Source of the DNA: Amycolatopsis sp. DSM 110486
GTDB lineage: Bacteria > Actinomycetota > Actinomycetes > Mycobacteriales > Pseudonocardiaceae
Direction of reading: 5' to 3'
Length of the DNA: 64,000 nt
Assembly: GCF_019468465.1 (NCBI RefSeq)
Contig: NZ_CP080519.1
Coordinates: forward strand, 1,007,001 to 1,071,000
The notes beneath the pieces are model-generated. The model was not told where the DNA came from. It saw only the letters and a program-made list of their open reading frames with translations, and ran no database searches. The translations under genes and the position numbers were made by a program. Of the stretch, positions 43,995-59,120 are shown piece by piece (the first letter of the stretch is position 1; every line of letters begins with the position of its first letter).

Positions 43995-44789
43995 ATGGCA
44001 ACAATGGTGACGTTCCACGCCCACCCCGACGACGAGTGCATCGTGACCGGTGGCGTGATGCGCAAAGCGGCCGACGACGGGCACCGCGTGGTGCTGGTGG
44101 TCGCGACGCGCGGCGAGGTGGGCGAGGTGCCCGACGGGTTCCTCGGCGACGGCGAGCAGCTGTGGGAGCGCCGCGTGCGCGAGACCCACGCGGCGGCCGA
44201 GGTGCTCGGCGTCAAGCGCGTGGAGTTCCTGGGCTACCGCGACTCCGGGATGATGGGCGAGCCGACCAACGACGCGCCGGGCGCGTTCTGGCGGGCGTCG
44301 ATCGAGGAGGCGGCCCAGCGGCTGGCCGAGATCCTGCGTGAGGAGGACGCCGAGGTCCTCACGGTCTACGACGACTACGGCAACTACGGCCACCCCGACC
44401 ACATCCAGGTCCACCGCGTCGGCCTGCGCGCCGCCGAGCTGGCGGGCACGCCGCGCGTCTACCAGGCGACCGCGAACCGCGACCACATGCGCCGCGGGAT
44501 GGAGCTGGCGGTGGAGATGGGGGCGATTCCGCGGGAGGCGGTGCCGGACGTCGACGCGCAGGAGAAGTTCGGCAAGCCCGAGGAGGAGATCACGGCGGCG
44601 GTCGACGTCAAGCCGTTTCTCGCCGCGAAGCGCGCGGCCATGCGGGCGCACCCGAGCCAGATCAGCGAGGAGTCGTGGTTCCTCGCGATGCCCGACGAGG
44701 CGTTCGGCCACGCGTTCGGCATCGAGTGGTTCATCCGCGCCGGCCACGGTCCGGGGATCACGGAGACGGACCTGATGGCGGGCCTATGA
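43995..44789 (+). CDS. PIG-L family N-acetylglucosaminyl-type deacetylase (Mca/MshB/LmbE-like)
   Basis: 264 residues. The zinc motif AHPDDE lies at about 9-14, and the third ligand His is in YGNYGHPDHIQVH. MVTFHAHPDDECIVTGG is the family's usual opening. Relatives deacetylate or hydrolyse mycothiol, its precursor or its conjugates; the exact member cannot be told from motifs, and the sequence differs from canonical Mca around the substrate loop. The apparently DNA-damage-type promoter would fit detoxification through mycothiol. It overlaps the convergent Rid gene by 6 bases. Confidence 0.87.
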   Translation: MATMVTFHAHPDDECIVTGGVMRKAADDGHRVVLVVATRGEVGEVPDGFLGDGEQLWERRVRETHAAAEVLGVKRVEFLGYRDSGMMGEPTNDAPGAFWRASIEEAAQRLAEILREEDAEVLTVYDDYGNYGHPDHIQVHRVGLRAAELAGTPRVYQATANRDHMRRGMELAVEMGAIPREAVPDVDAQEKFGKPEEEITAAVDVKPFLAAKRAAMRAHPSQISEESWFLAMPDEAFGHAFGIEWFIRAGHGPGITETDLMAGL

Positions 44790-45182
44790 CACGGCGGCGG
44801 TGACGTCGAGCTCCACCAGCTGGCCCGGATAACCGAGGCACGTCACGCCCAGCAGCGTGCTTGCGGTGCTGAACGCCGGCCCGATCGCCGAGCCGGTGAA
44901 CCGGTCCCAGACGGCGGAGAGCACGGCGCGCTCGGCCGTGGCCACGTAGATCACCGTGCGGACCACGTCGTCGGCGGTGGCGCCCGCGGCCGCGAGCGCG
45001 GTGGCCGTGTTGGCGACGACCTGGTTCACCTGCGCAAGCACGTCGCCGCCGACCACGGCACCGTCCAGCCCGAGCGGGCACTGGCCGGCGAGGTGCACGG
45101 TCGTGCGGCCCGAGACGGTGGTCACGTGGTGGTAGCCGGGCGTCGCGTGCAGGGTCGGCGGGTTCTGCCGTTGAATGGTCAC
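44784..45182 (-). CDS. Rid-family (YjgF/YER057c/UK114) protein
   Basis: 132 residues from the GTG at 45182, chosen because family members open (M)TIxRxNPPxLHxTPGYxHV exactly there; an ATG at 45206 is possible. The conserved Arg is in DDVVRTVIYVA. Rid proteins hydrolyse reactive enamine/imine intermediates, but many subfamilies lack that activity. Translation signals are weak. It is divergent from mtnA across 65 bases. Confidence 0.85.
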   Translation of the reverse strand: MTIQRQNPPTLHATPGYHHVTTVSGRTTVHLAGQCPLGLDGAVVGGDVLAQVNQVVANTATALAAAGATADDVVRTVIYVATAERAVLSAVWDRFTGSAIGPAFSTASTLLGVTCLGYPGQLVELDVTAAVS

Positions 45183-45247
45183 GGGGCCGCATGGTGGTGC
45201 ACCCATCGCGTGGCCGGCCAGCGATTTTCGGGGGCTCGGGAGGACAG

Positions 45248-46234
<987 letters not shown>

Positions 46235-46286: not shown

Positions 46287-47342
46287 TTACCCCACGAGCG
46301 ACCGGTACAACTCCAGGTGCGCCCGCGCGGCAGCGGCCCACGTGTGGCGCTCAGCCAGAGCCACACCCGCCGCGCGGTCTTCCGGTCCGGAATCCAGCGC
46401 TGCCTCGATCGAGGCGGCGAAGCCGTGCGGCGTGGCAGCGAACCGGGCCACCCCGCCGAAAACCTCGCGCAGCACCGGGAGATCACGCGCCACCAAAGGC
46501 ACTCCCGCAGCCAAAGCCTCCATCGCCGCCAGACCGAAGCCCTCCTTCGTCGAGGGGAAGGCGAACACCGCGGCCGACCGGACCAGCGACGGCAGCGAGT
46601 CGTGCGCAACCGGCCCCAGCACCACCGGATCCACACCCAGCGCGGCCGCCCGCTTGTCCCAGCGCTCGCGGTAGTCGCGGTAGTCGAAGAGCGTTTCGCC
46701 GCCCGCGATCACCAGGCGCACCGCGGGGTCGAGCAAAGCGACGGCCTCCAGCAGGTCCAAAGAACCCTTGCGCGGCTCGATACCGCCGACCGCGAGCACA
46801 TACCGGCCGAACCGCGCCCGCCAATCCCCGTACGGCGCCGAAGAAAACCGCGCAGCATCAACGCCGTTGGGAATCACGGTGGCTTCGATCCCCCAGCCCG
46901 CGCGCACCTCGGCGGCCACCGACGCCGACACGCACACGTGCGCGAACGGCCGCGTGATCGCCCGTTCGTGACACGCGGCCAGCTCGGGCGTGGTGAACGT
47001 GTCGAGGTGGTGCACCGTCCGCACGCACCGGTCCACGGCGTTGGCCGAGATGCAGTCCTGCGCGTGCACGATGTCGTACTCGCCATCAGGGAAAGCCGCC
47101 CCCAAAACCGCGATCGAGCGCACGATCCGGGAGCCCACCGACTCACCCGGCACCTCGGGAAACGGCACGACCATCGTCGTCACCCGCGGATCCACCGGCC
47201 GGAAGAACCCACTGTCACCACCACGGCCCAGGGTCCACACCGTCACGTCCGCACCGAGCGCGGCCAGGGCCTCCGCCAGCGCCAGCGTGTGCACCACGCC
47301 GCCGCGGGGTTTCGTCGAATAGCTCAGCAACGCGATGCGCAA
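46287..47342 (-). CDS. Glycosyltransferase family 4, MSMEG_0565 type
   Basis: 351 residues in a GT-B fold. The N-terminal half has GGVVHTLALAEALAALGADV and IVHAQDCISANA. The C-terminal half has YVLAVGGIEPRKGS and the nucleotide-sugar site ending FAFPSTKEGFGLAAMEALA. It is the last gene of the Nit1C-type operon; the actinobacterial clusters carry this glycosyltransferase, whereas most proteobacterial ones do not. The TTG start has GGGAGG 7 bases upstream inside the end of the nitrilase-like gene. Its acceptor is unknown. Confidence 0.9.
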   Translation of the reverse strand: MRIALLSYSTKPRGGVVHTLALAEALAALGADVTVWTLGRGGDSGFFRPVDPRVTTMVVPFPEVPGESVGSRIVRSIAVLGAAFPDGEYDIVHAQDCISANAVDRCVRTVHHLDTFTTPELAACHERAITRPFAHVCVSASVAAEVRAGWGIEATVIPNGVDAARFSSAPYGDWRARFGRYVLAVGGIEPRKGSLDLLEAVALLDPAVRLVIAGGETLFDYRDYRERWDKRAAALGVDPVVLGPVAHDSLPSLVRSAAVFAFPSTKEGFGLAAMEALAAGVPLVARDLPVLREVFGGVARFAATPHGFAASIEAALDSGPEDRAAGVALAERHTWAAAARAHLELYRSLVG

Positions 47343-47344
47343 CG

Positions 47345-48175
47345 TCAGCCCTCCCGGTACGCGAAAGGTTTGCGTTCCCCCAGGTGGTGCAGCACGCGGC
47401 GGGCGTTCGCGACTTCCCCCGCCACGTCGACCTCGGCCACCGCGAGCCCCGCCTTCGACCAGGTGCGCGCCAGGATCTCGCCACCGGGGCCGACGACCTT
47501 GGCCTGGCCGAGGAACCGCATGCCACCCATCGCGCCGGTCTGGTTGGACGACACGAGAACCACCTGGTTCTCCGCGGCGCGCGCCTGGTCGTACAGGTCG
47601 AACAGCCGCGACTGGCGGTCCTGCGCCATCCGCGGTGCCCGGTCGGTGATGCTCGTCGGCCACGCCGAGAGGCACGCGACGATCTCCGCGCCGTCCACCG
47701 CGAGCGAGCGCGCCGACTCCGGGAACGTCTTGTCGTAGTCGATCAGCATCCCGACGCGCCCGGCGGGGGTGTCGAACGCGGTGAAGGAATCCCCCGCGTC
47801 GTACGCGACGCTCTCTCCCGGCGGCTGGTGCACCTTCCGGTGGTGGCCGAGCACACCGTCGCCCGTCACGCACACGGCCGCGTTGTAGCGGCGCGTACCG
47901 TCGGCCTCGCAGTAACCCACGCACACGGTCATCTCCGCGGCCAAAGCCTGCACCGTTTTCAGCTCGGGGCAACCGGGTTCGAGCGCCGGCGGCAGCGCGT
48001 CCGGGTCGGGGTGGCGCAGGTCGGCGAGGTAGCCGCCGAGCGCCGCGTCGGGCAGCACCAGCAGGTCGGCGCCGCTCTGGCGCGCGTGGTCGATCAACGT
48101 GGCGATGCGCCGCAGGTCGAACTCGAGGTCGCGCCCGAAGTGCGCGGCCACGGCGGCGATCCGGAGCCGGCTCAT
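47345..48175 (-). CDS. Nitrilase-superfamily protein with two catalytic residues replaced (probable pseudoenzyme)
   Basis: 276 residues, full length, closely similar to the adjacent protein at 48176 from end to end. The nitrilase triad is Glu-Lys-Cys. Here the Glu position is Asp43 (LVLPDAALGGY), the Lys is kept (Lys114 in HHRKVHQP), and the nucleophile position is Asp146 (GMLIDYDKTFPES). The frame is intact and its start codon touches the stop of the active copy, so it is expressed with it. It cannot use the standard thioester mechanism and may be a structural or regulatory partner of the active nitrilase, or have a changed activity. Confidence 0.9.
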   Translation of the reverse strand: MSRLRIAAVAAHFGRDLEFDLRRIATLIDHARQSGADLLVLPDAALGGYLADLRHPDPDALPPALEPGCPELKTVQALAAEMTVCVGYCEADGTRRYNAAVCVTGDGVLGHHRKVHQPPGESVAYDAGDSFTAFDTPAGRVGMLIDYDKTFPESARSLAVDGAEIVACLSAWPTSITDRAPRMAQDRQSRLFDLYDQARAAENQVVLVSSNQTGAMGGMRFLGQAKVVGPGGEILARTWSKAGLAVAEVDVAGEVANARRVLHHLGERKPFAYREG

Positions 48176-49003
48176 TCACCCACCCACGGCATACGCGGCG
48201 GGCCGGCGGTCGGCCAGGTGCGCCATCGCCCGGCGCGCGCCCGCCAACGCCGCGGCGACGTCCAGCTCGGCGATCGCCAGCCCCTCGCCCACGCCCGTGT
48301 CGGCCAGCACCTCACCACCCGGGTCGACGATCTTCGCGCTCGCCACGAACCGCAGGTCGCCGAAGGTGCCGGACTGGTTCGCCGATACCCACACGATCTG
48401 GTTCTCCAACGCACGGGCTCGGTCGAACAGGTCGAACCGGCGCTTCCACCGGTCCTCGGCGAGGTCGGCACTCGGGTTGGTCCGGCTGCCCGGCCACGCC
48501 GACATGCACACCACCACCTGCGCGCCATCGAGCGCCAGCGCCCGCGCCGACTCCGGAAACGCCTTGTCGTAACAGATCATCATGCCCAGCCGGCCCACCG
48601 GCGTGTCGAACGCGGCGAACCCGCTGCCCGCGCCGTAGCTGGCGTCCTCCGACAACGGCTGGTGCACCTTCCGGTGGTGCCCCAGCACGCCGTCGCCGGT
48701 CACGCACACGGCCGAGTTGTAGCGCCGGTCGCCGTCGCGCTCGCAGTACCCGGCCGTGACCACGAGGTCGCCCGCCAGCTCGGCCAGGCGGCGGATCTCC
48801 GGGCCCGCCGGGTCGAGCGCGGGCGGGCCCTCCGCGTCACCGTCGAGGTTCGCGAGGTACCCGCCGAGCGCCGCCTCGGGCAGCGCGAGCAGCCCGACGC
48901 CCTCCGCCCTGGCCTCGGCGATCAGCTTCTCGATCCGCGCGAAGTCGCCCTCGACGTCGCGGTCGAAGGGCGCCGCCACCGCGGCCATCCGCACCGTGCT
49001 CAT
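48176..49003 (-). CDS. Nitrilase (carbon-nitrogen hydrolase), Nit1-type, catalytic triad intact
   Basis: 275 residues with Glu43 in LALPEAALGGY, Lys112 in HHRKVHQP and Cys144 in GMMICYDKAFPES, the complete nitrilase-superfamily triad. Nit1 is the defining enzyme of the Nit1C cluster; its true substrate is not settled, though the cluster has been linked genetically to cyanide assimilation and nitrogen starvation. GAGGAG precedes the ATG. It is immediately followed by a degenerate paralogue. Confidence 0.9.
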   Translation of the reverse strand: MSTVRMAAVAAPFDRDVEGDFARIEKLIAEARAEGVGLLALPEAALGGYLANLDGDAEGPPALDPAGPEIRRLAELAGDLVVTAGYCERDGDRRYNSAVCVTGDGVLGHHRKVHQPLSEDASYGAGSGFAAFDTPVGRLGMMICYDKAFPESARALALDGAQVVVCMSAWPGSRTNPSADLAEDRWKRRFDLFDRARALENQIVWVSANQSGTFGDLRFVASAKIVDPGGEVLADTGVGEGLAIAELDVAAALAGARRAMAHLADRRPAAYAVGG

Positions 49004-49016
49004 GTTCTCTCCTCGG

Positions 49017-50390
49017 TCATGCTGCCTCCCCCAACCCTGTGACCCCGCCGTCCACGACGGTGGTCACCTCGCCGTCCGGCCACCGCAGCCGCACGCCGGA
49101 TCCCGCCACGAGCTCGCCGCATTCGGCGGTCACGGCGGCGCGGGCCGGAGCGGGCGCCCCGGCCGTGAGCATCGCGAAGCCCGGGAAGCAGGTGAACCAG
49201 TCGCCCACCGTCGTCCCGGCCGGGCGCGGCACCTTCGTGACGTCCAGCACCGCGCCGCAGCCCGACGCCTCGGCGAGCATCCCGAGCGTGCCGGCGAGGC
49301 CCGCCATCGACACGTCCTTCGCCGCCGCGGGCCGCGCCCGGGCGACGGCGCCGAGCTGGTCACGCAGCTCGGGTGTGCGCCGTGAGCTCGTCGAATCCCA
49401 TTGCCGCCCGGTGTAGCCGGGCCGCCAGCGGCCTTCGAGGTCGGCGGTCAGGTACACCGCCTGGCCGGGTTGTCCGCCGCCACCTGGCACCGGCTCGGCA
49501 GCGCGGCCCAGCGCGGTGACGGCCAACGACGCCGGGACGCCGAACTGCGTGTGCCCGCCGAGCACCGGCACCCCGTACGCGGTGCTCGCCTTCCGGAGTC
49601 CGGAAAGGACTCTCGCCGCGAACGACGCGTCCCGCGCGCCCAGAGCGTCCAGCAGCGCAACGGGTTCCGCACCCATCGCCGCCAGGTCGTTCACGTTCAC
49701 CAGCACCGAGCACCAGCCCGCCCACTCCGGATCGCGCTCGACCATCGACGGCACGATCGCGTCGCACGCCGCGACGAGATCGCTGCCCGGAATCGGCACG
49801 CCGTCGTCGCCGAAGAAGCCCGGGCTGCCGGTGAGGCCGGGCAACAGTGTCCCCAGTGGACGTTTGGTGGCCTGCGCCAACGCGGCCACTCGGCCGATCG
49901 GCCAGCGCATCAGGACGTGCCGGACATCCGCGACCGTGACCGGCCGGACGTGCTGCCAGCCCAGCCGTGTGAACATCCGCTCGTTCTGCACCTGCACGGT
50001 CGCCTCGAACCGCAGCGCGCCTTCCGTTTCGGCCCGGGCGCACGCGGCTCGCACGAGAGCGCGTCCGACACCGTGCGGGCTGCCCGGCGCGACGACCAGC
50101 CGTCCACCGGTCCACCAGCCGAAGTCCGGGCCGTCTTGTGCCGGGCCGAGCCGGACGCCGCCGAGCACGGTGCCGGCGGCGTCGCGCGCCACGAGCACCA
50201 GCGTCCGCGGGTCGGTGTCGCGGTCATCGACGTCATGGCTCGCGAACAGGCCTTGGCGCTCGACAAACGTCTCGTGCCGCAAAGCCCGGTACGCCGTCAG
50301 TCCACTGTGGTCGGCCGGTTCGATTCGGAACTCCGGTGGGGAAGCGGCGCTACGGGAATCGCCGAGCAACGCCAGGATGTCGTGCTCCAC
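49017..50390 (-). CDS. Fused GNAT N-acetyltransferase and AIR-synthase-like protein, MSMEG_0567/sll0787 family
   Basis: 457 residues. Residues ~15-145 form a GNAT acetyltransferase with acetyl-CoA loop PGSPHGVGRALVRAAC. Residues ~165-450 resemble AIR synthase/PurM-type ATP-binding proteins (FFGDDGVPIPGSD, VLVNVNDLAAMGAEPVALLDAL, PVLGGHTQFG). In cyanobacteria these are separate genes (sll0786, sll0787). The GTG at 50390 is chosen since GGGAGG lies 6 bases upstream and it follows the radical SAM stop by one base; a GTG at 50408 is in frame but has no ribosome site. Confidence 0.9.
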   Translation of the reverse strand: MEHDILALLGDSRSAASPPEFRIEPADHSGLTAYRALRHETFVERQGLFASHDVDDRDTDPRTLVLVARDAAGTVLGGVRLGPAQDGPDFGWWTGGRLVVAPGSPHGVGRALVRAACARAETEGALRFEATVQVQNERMFTRLGWQHVRPVTVADVRHVLMRWPIGRVAALAQATKRPLGTLLPGLTGSPGFFGDDGVPIPGSDLVAACDAIVPSMVERDPEWAGWCSVLVNVNDLAAMGAEPVALLDALGARDASFAARVLSGLRKASTAYGVPVLGGHTQFGVPASLAVTALGRAAEPVPGGGGQPGQAVYLTADLEGRWRPGYTGRQWDSTSSRRTPELRDQLGAVARARPAAAKDVSMAGLAGTLGMLAEASGCGAVLDVTKVPRPAGTTVGDWFTCFPGFAMLTAGAPAPARAAVTAECGELVAGSGVRLRWPDGEVTTVVDGGVTGLGEAA

Positions 50391-50391
50391 T

Positions 50392-51477
50392 TCAGCCTCC
50401 CGCCGCACTGAGCACGCTGCACGCTCCGCAAGCCGCGCAACCCGCTCCCTGGTCCGCCCCGGTCATCCCCGCGGCCCGCAACAGCTCAGCCACCCGCAGC
50501 GTCACGTCACGCACCAACGCAGGCGTTGGGGCCACGGCGCCGTCGCGTCGGGCAAGCGTGCCGAGCATCGGCCGCATCGGTACCACGAACGGGTACACGC
50601 CCCGCTCGATCAGCCGACCGGCGCCCGCGACGAGCTCGTCCGGATCCTCACCGAGGCCGATCAGCAGGTACGTCGACACGCGGTTGGGGCCGAACACGCG
50701 CACGGCCTCGTCCCACGCCGCCTCGTACTCCGCCATCGGCACACTCGACTTGCCGGGCATCCACCGGCGGCGCACGTCCTCGTCGAGCGACTCCACGTGG
50801 ATGCCGATCGACGTCGCGCCCGCCTCGCGCAGCTCGGTCAGCACGGCGAGGTCGCCTGGCGGCTCGATCTGCACCTGGATCGGCAAGCCGGGCACGGCGT
50901 CGAGCACCGCGCGCACGCAGCGCACGAGGTGCCGGGCCCCGCGATCCGGCCCGGCCGTGGTGCCGGTGGTCAGCACCATCTGCTTGATCCCGTCGAGCCG
51001 CACGGCCGCTTCCGCGACCTCGGCGAGCTGCGCCGGGGTCTTGGCCGCGACCGTCGAATCGGCGTGAAGCGACTCTTCGATGGTGCAGAACCGGCAACGC
51101 TGGTCTTCGACGTAGCGGATGCAGGTCTGCACGACGGTGCTCGCGAGCACGTCCTTCCCGTGCAGCAGCGCGATCTTGCGATAGGGCACCCCGTCCTCGG
51201 TGGACAGGTCGTAGAACTTCGGCCGGGCCACGGGTTCGACCGAGAGGCCGAGGTCCAGCGAGCCGCGGAACACGCGACCTTCCCGTACTTGGTAGGGACT
51301 TTCGTCGTTCAGCGGCAGCGTGGCGTTGGCACCGTCGACGACCAGGTGCCCGTCGTCACTCGGCCCGGCGCCTTTGCTGCGCTGCACGGGTGCGTCCATC
51401 CGCACCCCGCGGACGGCCATGTCGGCGCGGGTGTCCAGAATATCTTCGGTGTCGATGTCAGTGGTGCCAACGCGCAC
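50392..51477 (-). CDS. Radical SAM protein, MSMEG_0568 family
   Basis: 361 residues. The cluster cysteines appear to be Cys119, Cys128 and Cys131 (CIRYVEDQRCRFC), a Cys-x8-Cys-x2-Cys pattern rather than Cys-x3-Cys-x2-Cys. The rest of the barrel is recognisable (VLTTGTTAGPDRG, IQVQIEPPGDL, IGIHVESLDEDVRRRW). A C-terminal GCAACGACS could hold a second cluster or a metal. It is expected to do radical chemistry on an unknown substrate of the Nit1C pathway. AGGAGG lies upstream of the GTG, overlapping the end of the previous gene. Confidence 0.9.
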   Translation of the reverse strand: MRVGTTDIDTEDILDTRADMAVRGVRMDAPVQRSKGAGPSDDGHLVVDGANATLPLNDESPYQVREGRVFRGSLDLGLSVEPVARPKFYDLSTEDGVPYRKIALLHGKDVLASTVVQTCIRYVEDQRCRFCTIEESLHADSTVAAKTPAQLAEVAEAAVRLDGIKQMVLTTGTTAGPDRGARHLVRCVRAVLDAVPGLPIQVQIEPPGDLAVLTELREAGATSIGIHVESLDEDVRRRWMPGKSSVPMAEYEAAWDEAVRVFGPNRVSTYLLIGLGEDPDELVAGAGRLIERGVYPFVVPMRPMLGTLARRDGAVAPTPALVRDVTLRVAELLRAAGMTGADQGAGCAACGACSVLSAAGG

Positions 51478-51486
51478 GCCCGCCTC

Positions 51487-51999
51487 CTAGAACATGTACG
51501 TGGAGTTGATGATCGCGCCCTTGCGCGCGTAGTGGATCAACGCGTCCTGCACGTCGAGCGGGTGCGCCGGGATCACGCCTTCGATGAGGTCTTCCTCGCG
51601 GGCGCCGTGCAGCGAAAGCCCGAAGCGGCAGCAGTAGACCTTGCCGCCCTCGGCGATGAACGTCTTGAGCTGGTCGTTGATGTTCAGCTCGCCGGGGAAC
51701 GCGGCGTTGCCGGTGGTGGGGAACCCGCGCGTGGCCAGGCAGTTGAGCGAGCCCGGGCCGTAGAAGTAGATCGCGGTCTCGAAACCCTTGCGCAGCGCGC
51801 GGGTCGCCTGCAGGATCGCGACGAAGCTCACCGACGACTCGTGCGCGATGCCGTGCACGAGGGTGAAGTACGTCTCCCCGTTCTCCGCCTGGTAGTCGGG
51901 GAAGATCTTGGTGGCGCCGTAGAGGTTCGAACCCTGCGGCAAAGACGGGTGCGGAATCTCGTCGAGGCTGGTCTTCTCGAGGTCGGTCAGCTCGGCCAT
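51487..51999 (-). CDS. MSMEG_0572/Sll0783-family nitrogen-starvation protein
   Basis: 170 residues with IYFYGPGSLNCLATRGFPTTG and KVYCCRFGLSLHGA. The arrangement recalls DsrE-like folds with exposed cysteines, though that is only a resemblance. The family is one of the invariant members of Nit1C clusters and is named from induction in nitrogen-starved cells; its biochemical role is unknown. AAAGGGAAA precedes the ATG, 3 bases after the amidohydrolase stop. Confidence 0.88.
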   Translation of the reverse strand: MAELTDLEKTSLDEIPHPSLPQGSNLYGATKIFPDYQAENGETYFTLVHGIAHESSVSFVAILQATRALRKGFETAIYFYGPGSLNCLATRGFPTTGNAAFPGELNINDQLKTFIAEGGKVYCCRFGLSLHGAREEDLIEGVIPAHPLDVQDALIHYARKGAIINSTYMF

Positions 52000-52002
52000 C
52001 GG

Positions 52003-52839
52003 TCATTTCCCTTTCTTCGGTCCGTACAGCACCTCGAACGTGCTCCGGAAAACGTGGTCGGCCAGCTCGCCGTCGCCGACCACCGCGGTCAGCTTCGCGA
52101 GCTCGCCCTCGTGGTCGCCCCACGGCTCGTCGGAGGCGAAGAGCACGCGGTCGTGCCCGATGCCGCGCCGGGAGATCTCCTCGGCGAGCCAGCGCGGGGT
52201 GAAGCCGATCGCCCAGGACAGGTCGGTGTAGACCTTTTTGCCGGCGGCGATCCAGTCGAAGAAGCGGCCGCCGGCGAGCTTGATGTGCCCGCTCATGCCG
52301 CCGCCGAAGTGCACGAGGTGCAGCTTCGCGTGGTCGGCGTACTCGTCGACAAGTTTTCCCACTTCGTCCACATCGGACGCGGCGCCGGGCGAGGTGTGGA
52401 CGTGGACGACTAGGTCGTGCTCGCGGGCGGTGGCAAAGATCTTGTCGAGCTGGGGTTTGCAGGCCGGGTCGCTCGCGCGGCCGCCGAGGAGGAAGCTGAG
52501 CTTGAGCGCGCGGACGCCGGGTTCGCCGGCGAGCTTGAGTGCCTGGTCGGTTCTCGCGGCGTCTTCTTTCCGGGGCGACACCCACAGAGCCGCGGCGAGG
52601 CGGTCGTCCTTTTCGGATGCTTCGACGCAGAGCTCGTTGAAGGAGAACGCGATTTCCGGGTCGGGCACGCCGTAGTTGGGGATCACGAGGGCGCGTTCGG
52701 TGCCCTCACGGTCCAAATCGGACAGTAGCTCGTCGATCGTCGCGCGCGCACCGACGGCCGGGGCGACCGGCGGGCCGCCGTAGAAGGGGTACGCGGGCAG
52801 CACGCCGAGGTGGCGGTGGGCGTCGGCGATCCAGCGCAT
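52003..52839 (-). CDS. Amidohydrolase-family (metal-dependent TIM-barrel) protein in the Nit1C operon
   Basis: 278 residues. HxH-type metal ligands are in IADAHRHLG at the N-terminus, with VVHVHTSPG and HLVHFGGGMSGH in mid-barrel and the final Asp in LFASDEPWGDHEG, the amidohydrolase_2 pattern. It may hydrolyse or decarboxylate a pathway intermediate. Its ATG shares a base with the TGA of the flavoprotein gene, so the two are translationally coupled. A Nit1C gene for an MSMEG_0570-type small protein is not visible in this operon. Confidence 0.87.
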   Translation of the reverse strand: MRWIADAHRHLGVLPAYPFYGGPPVAPAVGARATIDELLSDLDREGTERALVIPNYGVPDPEIAFSFNELCVEASEKDDRLAAALWVSPRKEDAARTDQALKLAGEPGVRALKLSFLLGGRASDPACKPQLDKIFATAREHDLVVHVHTSPGAASDVDEVGKLVDEYADHAKLHLVHFGGGMSGHIKLAGGRFFDWIAAGKKVYTDLSWAIGFTPRWLAEEISRRGIGHDRVLFASDEPWGDHEGELAKLTAVVGDGELADHVFRSTFEVLYGPKKGK

Positions 52840-54158
52840 CACGCGACCGTCCTCGGAGCGACCCAGTCGTCGGCCGGCTCGGTGTTTCGTGGCGTGCCGG
52901 AGATCCAGCGGACGTCGGCCGCGCGCTCGCCCGCGACGATGCGTCGCGCCAGGTATTCCGCGTCGGCACCGACGCCGCAGAACCGGCCGGAGCCCCAGGT
53001 GTGCTGCCACGGCAGGCCGAGGAAGAACAGACCCGGGCAGGTCGTGACGCCGCGGCGGTGCGTCGGGTAGCCCTTGCCGTCGAACACGGGAACGTCGATC
53101 CAGCGGTGGTCCCGGCCGAATCCGGTGCTCCAGACGACGGCGGAGATCCCTTTCGTGTCAAGGGTTCGCGGCTCGTTGTCCGGCTGCCAGACGGGAGTGT
53201 AGCGGGGTTCTGGTGGTGCTTCGATGTTCGCCCGGGTGAGGTAGGCGTCGATCGAGTCCTTGATGCCTTCGGACACGGCGTCTGCCGCGTCGAGGTTGCG
53301 CCGGAGATCGGGGGCGAAGGTCAGGGTGTGGTCGCGGACGTCGGTGAGGCGCCCGTAGAGCTGCATGCCCTCGCGGGCGAACGCGCGCAGGTCGATGTCG
53401 TGGCCGCCGTCGCGTCCGGTGACGTAGTGGTTGGCACGGAACCGGACGGCGTCGGCGTCGGCGAACTCGTCGATTCCCCTGGCGTAGTAACCCATGTCGT
53501 CGAGCCAGGCCACCACGTCGCGGCCCCGGTAGCGCCGCGCCACCCGCGGCGCCGACCCGACCGCGAGGTGCACGCGGCGGCCGGCGAGGTGCAGATCCTC
53601 GGCGATCTGGCAGCCGGACTGGCCGGTGCCGACCACGAGCACCTCGCCGTCGGGCAGCTGCTCCGGGTTGCGGTAGTCGGAACTGTGCAGCTGCGTCGTG
53701 GTGGCCGGCAACCGCTCGGCCAGCCGCGGCTTGAGCGGCACCTGGTACGGGCCGGTCGCCACCACGACGTGGTCCGCCGTCAGCTCACCCTGCGTGGTGG
53801 CCACGCGGAACCCGCCACCGGGCACCTTCGTCAGGCGCGTGGCCTCGACCCCCTCGACGATCGGCACGTCGAAGGATTTCTTGTAGTCTTCGAGGTAGGC
53901 GACGATGTCGTCGCGCACCATGAACCCGTCCGGATCACCACCGGGGTAGGGGAAACCGGGAAGCCGGCACTGCCAGTTGGGCGTCACCAGGCAGAAGCTG
54001 TCCCAGCGGCGTTCTCGCCACTCGTGCCCCGCGCTCGCGCGCTCGAGCACCACGTGCCCGACCCCGGCGGTCGTCAGGCACTGGGACATCGAGAGCCCCG
54101 CTTGTCCGCCGCCGATCACGATCACCGGCCGGTGCAGGCCGTCGAGCTGGAAGTTCAT
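52839..54158 (-). CDS. MSMEG_0569-family flavin-dependent oxidoreductase
   Basis: 439 residues with two dinucleotide-binding motifs: FAD site [17 protein letters not shown] near residue 13 and NADPH site [17 protein letters not shown] near residue 175. The layout is that of flavin monooxygenases and ornithine-hydroxylase relatives; ATG at the C-terminal side reads [17 protein letters not shown]. First gene of the eight-gene Nit1C operon. The 250 bases upstream (54159-54408) contain several GTTAC/GTTAAC words but no box that I can assign. Ribosome site weak (GGCGGTG). Confidence 0.9.
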
Positions 54159-54408
54159 GCCGCACAGTGCACCGCCGGGCGGAGTCCGAACCGTTTCATC
54201 CGGAACACCGCCGTGTTACATGCACCGCGCAGAGTTACGGTTCCCGGCGGTGTGCGTTAACACGATTTCGGGTGGGGGTAAGAAATCGCGCCGCCCGCCT
54301 CACCCGATCGAGTGACGTCAGGCAGGACAACCCTTCAGGCTTCTCGGGCGTGTGAGCTCAGAACGCCCCTCCGCGGGCGCAGCCCGGCGAGCGAGCGAGG
54401 GAACTCGA

Positions 54409-55180: not shown

Positions 55181-55396
55181 TCAAGGCCGTGGCCCCACAA
55201 CCTCCGCGCCATCCGTGATCGTGATCGCCATCGCCGGGCAGGAGTCGGCGGCGTCGAGGGCGGTCTCGTCCGGCGGGACGGTGTCGGCCAAGGTGTGGGC
55301 GACCGGGCCGTCCAGGGCGAAGAGCTCCGGCATCAGCGAGGCGCACATGCCGGAGCCGATGCATGTGTGTTCGTCGACTTCCACTTTCCAGGTCAT
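55181..55396 (-). CDS. Ferredoxin, 3Fe-4S type, P450 partner
   Basis: 71 residues. The cluster cysteines are in HTCIGSGMCAS and DSCPAMAI, a Cys-x5-Cys then Cys-Pro arrangement with no fourth ligand, typical of the 3Fe-4S ferredoxins that feed electrons to actinobacterial P450s. It begins 2 bases after the P450 stop, with a GGTGGTG site inside the P450 gene, so the two are made together. No reductase gene is adjacent. Confidence 0.92.
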   Translation of the reverse strand: MTWKVEVDEHTCIGSGMCASLMPELFALDGPVAHTLADTVPPDETALDAADSCPAMAITITDGAEVVGPRP

Positions 55397-55398
55397 CG

Positions 55399-56589
55399 TC
55401 ACCACCCGATCGGCATGGAGCGTGGTCCGCGGACCAGCATCTGGGTCTTCCACACGATATCGCCGGCGAGGTGGAGGTTCGGCATTTCGCGCGTGAGAGC
55501 TTTCAGCGCCTCCTGCAGCTCCAGGCGGGCGAGCGGCGCGCCGAGGCAGTGGTGCACGCCGTGGCCGAAGCCGAGGTGGTGGGTGTCCTCGCGGTCGAAC
55601 ACGAGGGTGTCCGCGTCGCCGAACTGGAGGCGGTCGCGGTTGGCCGCGCCGATCGCGACGAGCACCGGTTCGCCCTCGCGGACGAGCACGTCGCCGACCT
55701 GCACGTCTTCGGTGGCGTAGCGCGCGAAGCCGGCGCCGGCGCCCAGGGGGACGAAGCGCAGCAGCTCCTCGACGGCGGTGTTGATCAGCGACGGGTCTTC
55801 GACGAGCTTCTTCCACTGCTCCGGCTGGTCGAGCAGCGCGTAGACGAAGTTCGGGATCTGGCTCGCCGTGGTCTCGTGGCCGGCGATGAGGATGCCGACG
55901 CACAGGTCGACGAGCTCCAGCTCCGTGAGCCGGTCGCGCACGTCGCGCGCCTCGATCAGCGCCGTCATCAGGTCGTCCTGCGGCTGCTCGCGGTGCTGCG
56001 CGATCAGGCCTGACATGTACTCGCGCAGCTCCTCGCGGTTGCGCTCGGCCTCCTCGGCGGTCAGGCCGCTCGTGGTCAGCGCCGCGTCGCTCCACACGCG
56101 GAACTTCGGGCGGTCCTCGGCCGGCACGCCGAGCAGCTCGCAGATCACCGCGACGGGGATCGGCAGCGCATACGCGTCGACCAGGTCGGCCGGCTGCCCG
56201 GCCGCCTTCATGTCCTCGATCAGGCCGGTCGCCAGCTCCTCGACGCGCGGCCGCAGCAGCTCCACGCGCCGGACGGTGAACGCCTTCGCCACCAGCGTGC
56301 GCAGCCGCGTGTGGTCGGGCGGGTCCATGGAGAGGATCCCGTTGGTCCGCCGGTGCGCGGTCATCCGCGGCTCGTCCTTCTCCACGGACATCGCGCGCGA
56401 GAACCGCCGGTCTCCCAGCACGAGCCGGGCGTCGGCGAACCGCGTGGCGAGCCAGGCCTGCTCACCGTGCGGCATCTGCACGCGGATCATGCCCTCTGCG
56501 TCGCGGGCGGCGGCATACGCCGCGTTGAGCGCGAGCCCCGCCTCTTCGTTGAACGGGTACGCAAGCGGCTCCGACTGCGTGGTGGTCAT
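55399..56589 (-). CDS. Cytochrome P450
   Basis: 396 residues of the soluble bacterial type. The oxygen-activation helix is LIAGHETTASQ, the ExxR motif is EELLR, and the heme-binding loop is FGHGVHHCLGAPLAR with the cysteine ligand. RLRTLVAKAFT and the overall pattern suggest the CYP105/CYP107 region of the family tree. Such enzymes hydroxylate secondary metabolites or xenobiotics. It is co-transcribed with its ferredoxin. The upstream palindrome at 56623-56642 implies repression, with induction by a small molecule. Confidence 0.93.
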   Translation of the reverse strand: MTTTQSEPLAYPFNEEAGLALNAAYAAARDAEGMIRVQMPHGEQAWLATRFADARLVLGDRRFSRAMSVEKDEPRMTAHRRTNGILSMDPPDHTRLRTLVAKAFTVRRVELLRPRVEELATGLIEDMKAAGQPADLVDAYALPIPVAVICELLGVPAEDRPKFRVWSDAALTTSGLTAEEAERNREELREYMSGLIAQHREQPQDDLMTALIEARDVRDRLTELELVDLCVGILIAGHETTASQIPNFVYALLDQPEQWKKLVEDPSLINTAVEELLRFVPLGAGAGFARYATEDVQVGDVLVREGEPVLVAIGAANRDRLQFGDADTLVFDREDTHHLGFGHGVHHCLGAPLARLELQEALKALTREMPNLHLAGDIVWKTQMLVRGPRSMPIGW

Positions 56590-56622
56590 GTGGAGAACTC
56601 CCAATCTGACGGAAAGTCCGGT

Positions 56623-56642
56623 TTGTAAGCACGCGCTTACAA
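56623..56642. promoter_or_regulatory. Operator-like palindrome upstream of the P450 gene
   Basis: TTGTAAGC-ACGC-GCTTACAA, perfect 8-bp arms with a 4-base centre, 34 bases upstream of the P450 start. Size and symmetry fit a TetR-family operator. The nearest TetR gene is at 59323, across the toxin locus; the link is unproven. Confidence 0.65.
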
Positions 56643-56753
56643 CCACGGTACCGAGTCGGCCCCGGCTTGTCAGCCGCTGCGCAGCGGCTGATCAACGTTA
56701 CTTTCCGTGACGACCGATGGGCGCGCTCGAACCCGGCCCCGGTGCCCGGCGAG

Positions 56754-57206: not shown

Positions 57207-59120
57207 TCAGCCGTTGAAGTGCTGGTCTGCCTTGAGCCAGTCCTGGTAGACCGGGTCGATGTTGTTGCCCGCGGCCGGGGCGGCCGGGACCGGCACCGGG
57301 TTCGGCGCGGGAGCCGCCGCCGGCGGAGGTGTCCACCCGGGCGGCGGGCCCAACGCGGCGTGCTCCGGCGGGTCGTACCGGAAGTACTGCACGTTGCGCG
57401 GGTCCACATCGAGCTTGCCGAGCTTGCCGGACTGCCCGTCGAGGAAAACGACGCCCTTGTCGGTGTTGATCACGTTCATCACGTGGGAGCTGCGGTCGTC
57501 GCGGACGACGATGACGTAGCCCTTGCTGTTGGGGTGCTCACTGGCCTTGTCGATGACCTGGTCCCAGTTGTCCAGGTCGGCCGGCCGGTCGGCGTTCGGG
57601 TTCTTCTGCCGCAGCGGGTGGTTCGGCCCGACGGAGGTGCCGATCTGCTGGTCCGGGGGCAGCTTCGGCGCGGGTTTGACCTTGCCGCCCAGCATCTCGT
57701 CAACGGACGTGATGGCCAGCGTGCAGTTCTTCCCGTCCTTGGTCGGGTTCAGCTTGTTGAGGTTCGGGTAGTACTTGCTCGCGAAATTGCCCGCGCCGAG
57801 GGTGTCGGCGTTGATCGACGGTTTGGTCGTGCCACCCGGGCCGGCCGAGGCCTTGACCTTGTTGCCGGGGACGAAGACGCCGCCGACCTTGTTGAAGAAC
57901 GAGCTGGTGGTGTCGCCGAGACCGTGCACCGGCGAGTCGACGGGGTCGGCGCTGCGGGGCGGCGGGGATTTCGGGGTGTCGCCGCCCGCGCTGGACGTGT
58001 GAGTGGTGTCGCCCGACTTCGGGGTTCCGCCGCCTCCGCCCGACTTGGGTGTGCCGCCGCCTCCGCCCGTCTTCGCCGGCGGGGGCGTGAAGTCGGATCC
58101 CGAGCCGGTGTAGCCCGAGCCGCCGGGCGCGTCGTCGGCCGACTTCGCGGCGGGCGGCGGGGTGTAGTCCTGGGGTGAGCCTTCGTAGCCGGACGCCTTG
58201 GTCGAGTCGTCCGCGCCCGACTTGCCCGGGGGTGGGGTGTAGTCCTTCGGCGTGCCCTCGTAGCCGCCGCCCTTCGGCGCGCCGCCGCCGTCACCAGCGG
58301 TTTTCACCGGCGGGGCCTGCGGGGTGCCGCTGAGGTCCTTGGTCTTCGGCGGCGGGGCGACCTTGCCGCCCTTGAAGCCTTTCAGCGCCTTGCCCGCGTC
58401 CTCGAACAGCGTGCCGGCCTTCTTCAGCAGCGGGACCAGCGCCTTGAGCGCTTTGACCAGCTTCGTCACGAGGCCCGTGATCTGCGAAGCCGTCTTCGCG
58501 ACGGCACTGGCGACCTGCGGGACCACCCACGCCAGGCCGATGCCGAGCGTGAACACCACCTGCAACGCCCAGCTGATCAGGTGCCCGATGAGCTCGGAGA
58601 TGATGTCGCGCACGAGCGTTCGGACGGCGGCGACCACTTCACCCGCGGTCTTGACCCCGGACGACGCGCCTTCGGTGCCCTTCTGCGCGGACTGCAGCAG
58701 CGTGCCGAGGTCCTGCGCACGTTGCCGGTACGCGTCCGATGCGGAGCCCGACCACGACTGCAGGTCGGCGTTCACGGCGTCGGTCAGGTCCGAGGCGACG
58801 CTGCCGAGCTCTTTGGCGACGTTCGCCCAGGTCTCGGACTGCGCCTTGATCTGGTCGGCGTTGCCGGTGAGGCCGTTGAGCGCGTCCTTGAGTGGTCCGA
58901 CGTGCTCCATGAGCCACGACACACCCGCGGCCAGGATCGCGCCGAAGGGATCCATCGCGACCGACAACGCGTCGAGCGCGGTCCCCACCGCCCCCATCGC
59001 GACCGACGCCCAGTCGCCCGACTCGATGGCCGTCGAGAGGTCGTTCGCGGTCTCCAGCAGGGAAATCCCCGAATACGCCTTGGTCGAATCCACGGTCGGC
59101 GCAATCAGCGGATTGCTCAT
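57207..59120 (-). CDS. Type VII-secreted polymorphic toxin with C-terminal papain-fold (Tox-PL-like) domain
   Basis: 637 residues. The N-terminal ~250 are helical with a WXG100-like hairpin (LQSWSGSASDAYRQRAQ) and hydrophobic stretches. A Pro/Gly-rich linker with repeats spans ~255-400. The C-terminus has the papain-fold toxin triad: Cys466 in GKNCTLAI, His546 in SSHVMNVIN and Asp561 in VVFLDGQSG. Tox-PL domains act as peptidases or glutamine deamidases in target cells. After the toxin domain comes a Pro/Ala tail (about 585-637). GAGGAG precedes the ATG. An Imm35-like gene follows directly. No type VII machinery genes are in the window. Confidence 0.88.
   Translation of the reverse strand: MSNPLIAPTVDSTKAYSGISLLETANDLSTAIESGDWASVAMGAVGTALDALSVAMDPFGAILAAGVSWLMEHVGPLKDALNGLTGNADQIKAQSETWANVAKELGSVASDLTDAVNADLQSWSGSASDAYRQRAQDLGTLLQSAQKGTEGASSGVKTAGEVVAAVRTLVRDIISELIGHLISWALQVVFTLGIGLAWVVPQVASAVAKTASQITGLVTKLVKALKALVPLLKKAGTLFEDAGKALKGFKGGKVAPPPKTKDLSGTPQAPPVKTAGDGGGAPKGGGYEGTPKDYTPPPGKSGADDSTKASGYEGSPQDYTPPPAAKSADDAPGGSGYTGSGSDFTPPPAKTGGGGGTPKSGGGGGTPKSGDTTHTSSAGGDTPKSPPPRSADPVDSPVHGLGDTTSSFFNKVGGVFVPGNKVKASAGPGGTTKPSINADTLGAGNFASKYYPNLNKLNPTKDGKNCTLAITSVDEMLGGKVKPAPKLPPDQQIGTSVGPNHPLRQKNPNADRPADLDNWDQVIDKASEHPNSKGYVIVVRDDRSSHVMNVINTDKGVVFLDGQSGKLGKLDVDPRNVQYFRYDPPEHAALGPPPGWTPPPAAAPAPNPVPVPAAPAAGNNIDPVYQDWLKADQHFNG
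58075..58268 (-). repeat. Imperfect peptide repeats in the toxin linker
   Basis: Three copies of a roughly 21-28 residue unit (GYEGTPKDYTPPP, GYEGSPQDYTPPP, GYTGSGSDFTPPP), followed at about 58015-58070 by two GGGGGTPKSG units. They form a flexible spacer between delivery and toxin domains. Confidence 0.75.

Follow-up and report, generated by a model that had tools for sequence, protein, structure and literature searches.

Gene clusters of the Nit1C type were described as sets of seven genes that occur with part of the subfamily-1 nitrilases and strictly with no others (Podar 2005, PMC1199592). They are represented by nitBCDEFGH of Pseudomonas and sll0783-0787 of Synechocystis. The closest known relative of the system considered here is the gpr (GlnR-dependent peroxide resistance) operon of Mycobacterium smegmatis, MSMEG_0565-0572. 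GlnR, which binds upstream of MSMEG_0572, is a strong inducer of this operon (PMC4222082, PMC3662644, PMC6039565), the induction in the absence of nitrogen is more than 500-fold, and the deletion of the operon lowers peroxide survival and NADPH/NADP (PMC6039565). In a Synechocystis sll0783 mutant, the rise of NADPH/NADP that occurs in the wild type does not take place (PMC3901256), so that lower NADPH/NADP under nitrogen starvation is common to mutants in two phyla. The MSMEG_0566 protein has been called an aliphatic amidase (PMC4222082, PMC6039565), described as possibly feeding nitrogen assimilation. In the papers that we searched, the product of the Nit1C/gpr gene family is nowhere named. 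Here, we analyse an operon of eight genes from Amycolatopsis sp. DSM 110486, located at positions 46287-54158 of a stretch of 64,000 nucleotides (contig NZ_CP080519.1, 1,007,001 to 1,071,000) that is called the window below. Two of its genes, A and B, encode nitrilase-superfamily proteins, and B is followed by a glycosyltransferase gene.

The window operon (gene families are named by their MSMEG numbers) contains, as gpr does, 0569, 0572, 0568, the 0567 fusion, 0565, and two carbon–nitrogen hydrolases. However, it has an amidohydrolase gene in addition, its 0570 gene lies at another place of the genome, A and B adjoin, and the operon is led by 0569, not by 0572. The operon is thus a variant within a family that is already known, and what is new in it is a conserved pseudo-nitrilase, kept under selection and fixed in its place before a glycosyltransferase. 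With a probability of about 0.5, we read the operon as the Amycolatopsis (Pseudonocardiaceae) variant of the gpr nitrogen-starvation operon, related but not identical to Nit1C, in which B would be a non-catalytic helper.

Residue loss and selection in gene B

The comparison was based on 101 loci: the window and 100 neighbourhoods chosen through the radical SAM gene (0568), irrespective of B. Searches for the 0568 family gave over-cut-off counts of 18 in 296 genomes of the phylum, 35 in 246 of the class, 15 in 149 of another class, 23 in 120 of the family, and 23 in 80 of the genus, with the window's genome counted in four of the five sets. Apart from the window, 104 radical SAM places scored over the cut-off; 99 of them were used (G466, G479, G573, G537, and G601 were left out), and one locus below the cut-off (G283) was added. 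Genes were assigned by their best BLAST match in flanks of about 10 kb to either side, which contig ends cut short in some loci, and the counts of gene overlaps are approximate, as gene starts were extended from BLAST matches. Additionally, named genomes were scanned for relatives of B; 431 were found and 80 kept, from genera including Mycobacterium/Mycolicibacterium, Gordonia, Williamsia, Nocardia, Rhodococcus, Dietzia, and Smaragdicoccus.

Gene A is present in 70 of the 101 loci, and its product has the intact nitrilase triad Glu-Lys-Cys (E-K-C) in all of them. Gene B is present in 57 loci, and in its product the Cys site is always occupied by Asp, whereas the Glu site is occupied by Asp (54/57) or Gly (3/57) and never by Glu, which gives 54 D-K-D and 3 G-K-D proteins. 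Thus, the Lys and the new Asp of B are fixed (57/57), whereas the Glu site drifts; the second Glu of the nitrilase family is kept in 52/57. The same difference was found among the homologues listed: E-K-C throughout the best 120 of 5828 for the window A, and D-K-D throughout the best 120 of 5017 for the window B (itself among them) and throughout the best 120 of 3345 for a mycobacterial B. In the named-genome scan, B was D-K-D in 74 and H-K-D in 6 of the 80 loci, counts that are biased because one of the two search patterns contains Asp at the Cys site, and A was found in 72 loci, being E-K-C in 71. In Williamsia sp. 1138 (L186), where B is D-K-D, the A gene is cut short at its start and the triad Lys is missing, so that A may be broken. 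The first-pass annotation had seen a tandem pair of an active and a degenerate nitrilase here, and the residues of the two proteins agree with it.

In a phylogenetic tree, A and B are placed on opposite sides of one branch (support 97/99), and B forms one group. The ratio of nonsynonymous to synonymous substitution rates (dN/dS) in three pairs was 0.055, 0.141, and 0.145 for B versus 0.039, 0.131, and 0.138 for A. When 60 of the 210 Amycolatopsis pairs were taken, its median was 0.127 for B and 0.161 for A. B is under purifying selection, as A is. Moreover, B is kept outside the window's own family, in rows that carry the labels Mycobacteriaceae, Nocardiaceae, Gordoniaceae, and Dietziaceae. 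We read B, from its residues, as a pseudoenzyme: as it has lost catalytic residues and yet is kept under selection, it would work without nitrilase or amidase chemistry.

A and B lie in one frame, separated by a stop codon only. A selenocysteine at the UGA codon of MSMEG_0571, which would fuse 0571 with 0569 (PMC6039565), was considered and rejected for the window operon, where A is followed by B and 0569 comes first. The stop codon of A is TAG in 11/70 loci, and TGA in all 72 A genes of the scan for B.

Gene order and the partner of B

The window order, 569-amidohydrolase-572-568-567-A-B-565, was found in 30 of the 101 loci, and in nine more with 0570 in front, an arrangement far beyond chance. 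The commonest order in the scan was 572-A-570-569-568-567-B-565 (39/80 loci, mycobacteria among them), in which A adjoins 0572 and B sits with the transferase. By synteny, MSMEG_0571 would correspond to A and MSMEG_0566 to B; M. smegmatis sequences were not among the loci returned, and no row of that name was among the best 120 of the 3345 matches to a mycobacterial B. The correspondence of MSMEG_0566 to B calls into question its published annotation as an aliphatic amidase.

The 0565 glycosyltransferase gene follows B directly in 57/57 of the radical-SAM-selected loci and in 80/80 of the scan loci. In contrast, A directly precedes B in 45/57 of the selected loci and in none of the 72 scan loci with both genes on one strand. 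Eight scan loci had no A; seven of them were cut by contig ends, and one, L148, was not. In L148, with both flanks present, B and the transferase were found, and neither A nor 0569 was found within the 17.8 kb that were searched. Thus, the B-565 module is fixed, whereas the place of A is variable.

The pathway can be pictured as follows. A small nitrogen-containing metabolite would be made by the flavin enzyme together with the radical SAM, GNAT/AIR-synthase, and DsrE-like proteins, and A would act on this metabolite or on a precursor of it by hydrolysing a nitrile or amide bond. B would have arisen once, from an A-like gene, and lost its nucleophile and base early in actinomycetes while being kept under selection, as the tree, the residues, and the dN/dS values suggest. 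It may stabilise or activate the transferase encoded right after it, its old pocket perhaps holding the acceptor. It is reasonable to suppose that the putative product of the operon is glycosylated, and a pseudoenzyme beside a glycosyltransferase could offer a route to the acceptor and hence to the product.

There is precedent for such a helper, as EryCII and DesVIII, P450 homologues without the heme cysteine, activate glycosyltransferases (PMC3391682). B is like them in being an enzyme homologue without the catalytic cysteine, and its gene directly precedes a glycosyltransferase gene, the similarity of role being an analogy. It differs from them in fold, P450 in their case and the nitrilase superfamily fold, next to a GT4 transferase, in the case of B. 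Additionally, NCBIfam names a family of P450-derived glycosyltransferase activators (TIGR04515), which was not among the matches of B; the comparison is one of working alike, not of membership. The transferase is our tentative choice for the partner of B, at somewhat less than even confidence, and a helper role for the transferase appears most likely, one for A less likely. That B would be the first nitrilase-fold glycosyltransferase activator, a helper or acceptor-holding subunit of 0565 convergent with EryCII and DesVIII, is a further step which we consider possible but doubtful; if it is true, MSMEG_0566 is not an amidase. No mention of a nitrilase pseudoenzyme as a helper was found in the open-access papers searched.

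Several observations weigh against this reading. B is dispensable: it is absent from 13 of the 70 A-bearing loci, of which ten keep the transferase and three have neither, and when the 13 genomes were searched, B did not turn up at another place. The transferases of three alpha- and betaproteobacterial clusters also stand without B. The correlation of evolutionary rates over 123 loci singles out neither partner (partial r of 0.14 for B-565 and -0.11 for A-B), and the rates of B track those of 0568 (0.385) and 0567 (0.359) more than those of 0565 or A. Moreover, A is present wherever B is in the radical-SAM-selected loci (57/57), and hence the fixed place of B before the transferase does not by itself name its partner. 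In the tree, distant NitC rows are placed among A on long branches, so that the root, and with it the A-to-B direction, is not fixed by the tree. As to nitrogen control, the strict GlnR consensus GNNAC-N6-GNAAC is found in 0/21 Amycolatopsis upstream regions, the window included, as opposed to 23/64 of the loci in which 0572 comes first (1.3 expected). In a tree of the transferases (read without support values), those of the B-less, A-bearing loci lie among those of the B-bearing ones, as losses would. One additional strong copy was found in the genome of a B-less locus (G121), and its triad is E-K-C.

The presence of A in all 57 loci with B, and its place directly before B in 45 of them, are also in keeping with B being the silent half of an A-B heteromer, with structural and specificity roles only, that replaces the homomeric NitC. 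Nitrilases assemble as dimers and spirals, and a heteromeric nitrilase complex, NIT4A/NIT4B2, is known from sorghum (PMC5154151). The sorghum genes, like A and B, are a pair of nitrilase paralogues, the heteromer being known there for the proteins and the pair here from the genes; they differ in belonging to the plant branch-1 nitrilases, and the A and B genes stand apart in other genera. Such separation, found in 12/57 selected loci and in 72/72 scan loci with both genes, together with the 13/70 A-bearing loci without B, the converse case of L148, and the negative A-B rate correlation (-0.11), makes A rather unlikely as the partner of B, and the heteromer likewise. When the A-B read-through was folded as one chain from 19 in-frame rows, the predicted template modelling score was 0.61 and the mean predicted local distance difference test score 73.7, with low values in the active-site loops, which says little either way on an A-B complex. 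B could also be alive in another sense, using its Lys-Asp pair for other chemistry or binding a ligand (a carboxylate, a nitrile, or a metal) as a sensor or carrier. The invariant Lys and new Asp, the retained second Glu, and the latitude at the first Glu site (Asp or Gly, and His in 6/80 scan loci) would suit such a role. No nitrilase-superfamily enzyme is known to work without the cysteine nucleophile, which counts against it, and we regard this explanation as unlikely.

The helper reading must also be set against two explanations of a different kind. If the operon had the true Nit1C function, cyanide or a cyanide-derived nitrile would be assimilated as a nitrogen source, as in Pseudomonas, where genes of like kinds (radical SAM, N-acetyltransferase, AIR synthase, oxidoreductase) make up the nit1C cluster, which is needed for growth on cyanide (PMC11049912). 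However, the cyanide link, which the first-pass annotation had cited for Nit1C, rests on Pseudomonas NitC (PMC11049912), and since no NitC was found at the cut-off in the genome, it should not be extended to this operon. A and B belong to another nitrilase branch, and the effects described for the mycobacterial operon are on peroxide resistance and on NADPH (PMC6039565), which leaves the cyanide function improbable here. Splitting the family by its hydrolase shows that the NitC story should not be extended to actinomycetes. Finally, the loss of two catalytic residues, and the loss of the gene itself in some lineages (10 loci have the transferase and no B), could mean that B is a decaying duplicate. 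We rejected this because of purifying selection (dN/dS), which is as strong on B as on A; B moreover forms one tree group and is kept in four families besides its own, and decay is thus very improbable.

Nit1C membership and the displaced 0570 gene

The Nit1C core families, namely ORF1 (0572, DsrE-like), radical SAM, GNAT, AIR synthase, and the flavoprotein, are all present in the window operon and score over their cut-offs. Nevertheless, contrary to the first-pass annotation, the operon is not a complete Nit1C, since there is no Nit6803/NitC-type nitrilase at the cut-off and 0570 is outside the operon. The two nitrilases scored 49.9 and 27.7 bits with the Nit6803/NitC family model TIGR04048 (cut-off 502.6), whereas Nit6803 of Aquabacterium, used as a positive control, scored 586 bits. 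In a genome-wide search with this model, none of the five matches was over the cut-off, and the best had 233.4 bits. A also scores under the cut-offs of all the NCBIfam models listed. As Nit1C is tied to subfamily-1 nitrilases (PMC1199592), the name itself does not fit the window operon.

The 0570 gene (TIGR04042) was not found in the operon. Its only match in the genome (4444675-4444935 of the chromosome, G000:C1) is 3.4 Mb away; it is an open frame (L001, L242), and its neighbour, judged by eye, resembles lon. A 0570 match was found in 5 of the 80 Amycolatopsis genomes (4 over the cut-off). All five are among the 23 genomes that carry the cluster, two of them with 0570 beside it, and there was no match in the 57 genomes without the 0568 cluster. 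Thus, 0570 is displaced rather than irrelevant to the operon. It is also displaced in G423, and in G466 it is split over two frames.

Of the two features thought to set the operon apart, the second nitrilase, that is, the A/B pair, does so. The glycosyltransferase is no special mark, because TIGR04047 transferase genes also form part of the Nit6803-type clusters in Aquabacterium, Methylorubrum, and Acetobacter (three alpha- and betaproteobacterial plasmid records); a glycosyltransferase in the clusters of Burkholderia and Rubrivivax was noted already by Podar (PMC1199592). The real differences from Nit1C are the A/B pair with its extra pseudo-nitrilase, the amidohydrolase, and the displaced 0570; the GNAT and AIR synthase genes are also fused in the window.

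Among the 101 loci, 31 have no A; in ten of them the amidohydrolase gene is directly before 0568, and the others are contig-cut or more distant. These ten (L071-L075, L078, L230-L233), distant loci of the 0568 type with an amidohydrolase where a nitrilase might stand and with 0572 in nine of them, could be a third hydrolase version of the system.

Gene content, upstream region, and surroundings

The eight open reading frames (ORFs) of the operon are on the minus strand, and the spacing from one to the next ranges from about -17 to +13 bases (Table 1). Thus, the tight packing and the single-operon layout of the first-pass annotation hold, and so do its gene families: five genes score over NCBIfam cut-offs, and the amidohydrolase and the two nitrilases were assigned through Pfam.

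Table 1. Genes of the operon and the upstream element, in order of transcription (positions in the window)
Feature	Position	Strand	Evidence
MSMEG_0569-family flavin-dependent oxidoreductase, first gene of the operon	52839..54158	-	TIGR04046, 650.5 bits (cut-off 498.35)
Amidohydrolase (Amidohydro_2), intact HxH and late Asp	52003..52839	-	PF04909, 56.2 bits
MSMEG_0572/Sll0783-family protein, DsrE/YchN fold, invariant Cys at position 124	51487..51999	-	TIGR04044, 256.2 bits (over cut-off)
MSMEG_0568-family radical SAM protein	50392..51477	-	TIGR04043, 492.5 bits (over cut-off)
MSMEG_0567-type GNAT acetyltransferase and AIR synthase-like fusion	49017..50408	-	TIGR04045, 87.7 bits; TIGR04050, 464.1 bits (both over cut-off)
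Nitrilase-superfamily protein A, intact E43-K112-C144	48176..49003	-	PF00795 (CN_hydrolase), 143.9 bits
Nitrilase-superfamily putative pseudoenzyme B, D-K-D at the triad sites	47345..48175	-	PF00795 (CN_hydrolase), 118.4 bits
MSMEG_0565-family GT4 glycosyltransferase	46287..47342	-	TIGR04047, 441.8 bits (cut-off 259.85)
Upstream element core, candidate nitrogen-control operator and promoter region	54193..54220	-	Aligned across Amycolatopsis loci

The start of the amidohydrolase gene was refined to an ATG that overlaps the 0569 stop codon by one base. Both His residues of its HxH motif and the late Asp, which we take to be metal ligands as in the amidohydrolase superfamily, are invariant in 42/42 alignment rows, and there was no NCBIfam match to this protein. 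In the 0568 radical SAM protein, the C-x8-C-x2-C motif is invariant (first three Cys in 61/61 rows), and the three Cys of a C-terminal C-x2-C-x2-C motif are present in 60/61 rows, with one gap. Sequence searches of the PDB gave no close relative of 0572 (best E 0.87) or of 0568 (lipoyl synthase 2, E 0.0027). The 0565 glycosyltransferase probably starts with TTG, behind GGGAGG and 2 bases past the stop codon of B.

That these genes are linked to nitrogen starvation, as put forward in the first-pass annotation, agrees with the GlnR control known from M. smegmatis (PMC4222082, PMC3662644, PMC6039565). The core of the upstream element is conserved in 21 Amycolatopsis loci, of which the window is one, and a genome search that allowed up to 3 mismatches found it at a single place. 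The upstream region resembles those of part of the loci in which 0572 comes first: 15/64 were above the 99% level of shuffles, with a best score of 45 versus 28. The looser motif A[CT]-N9-AC occurs once in the window's upstream region and in 20/21 Amycolatopsis regions, and as 13.9 would be expected by shuffling, it says little. Nitrogen control of the operon is likely in this organism.

Downstream of the operon, positions 44784-46234 hold a methylthioribose-1-phosphate isomerase gene (mtnA) and a Rid-family gene. Upstream and on the operon strand, a cytochrome P450 gene and a small ferredoxin-like gene occupy positions 55181-56646, the P450 being below the cut-off of the nine NCBIfam models listed. 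A minus-strand ORF at 57207-59120 (637 amino acids, rich in proline and glycine) may encode a secreted or WXG-type protein. No Rfam families or tRNAs were found within the window. The nearest named proteins to A and B, among the matches listed, are from Amycolatopsis, and the flank of the operon at 44500-45200 had no near match among plasmids. Records of plasmids with a 0568-type gene number 515, of which 373 are from Klebsiella, and four Rhodococcus plasmids carry this type with a B-like gene. One locus (L154), titled Rhodococcus sp. IEGM 1381, is given in the tree listing as Chroococcidiopsidaceae, Cyanobacteriota, a probable mix-up of label or assembly. Eight loci of one family (f89; L200, L207, L208, L210, L211, L213, L214, and L217) have neither 0569 nor B in the cluster, whereas other f89 loci keep 0569; in L200, a different flavin adenine dinucleotide (FAD) enzyme of 544 amino acids is encoded between A and the glycosyltransferase.

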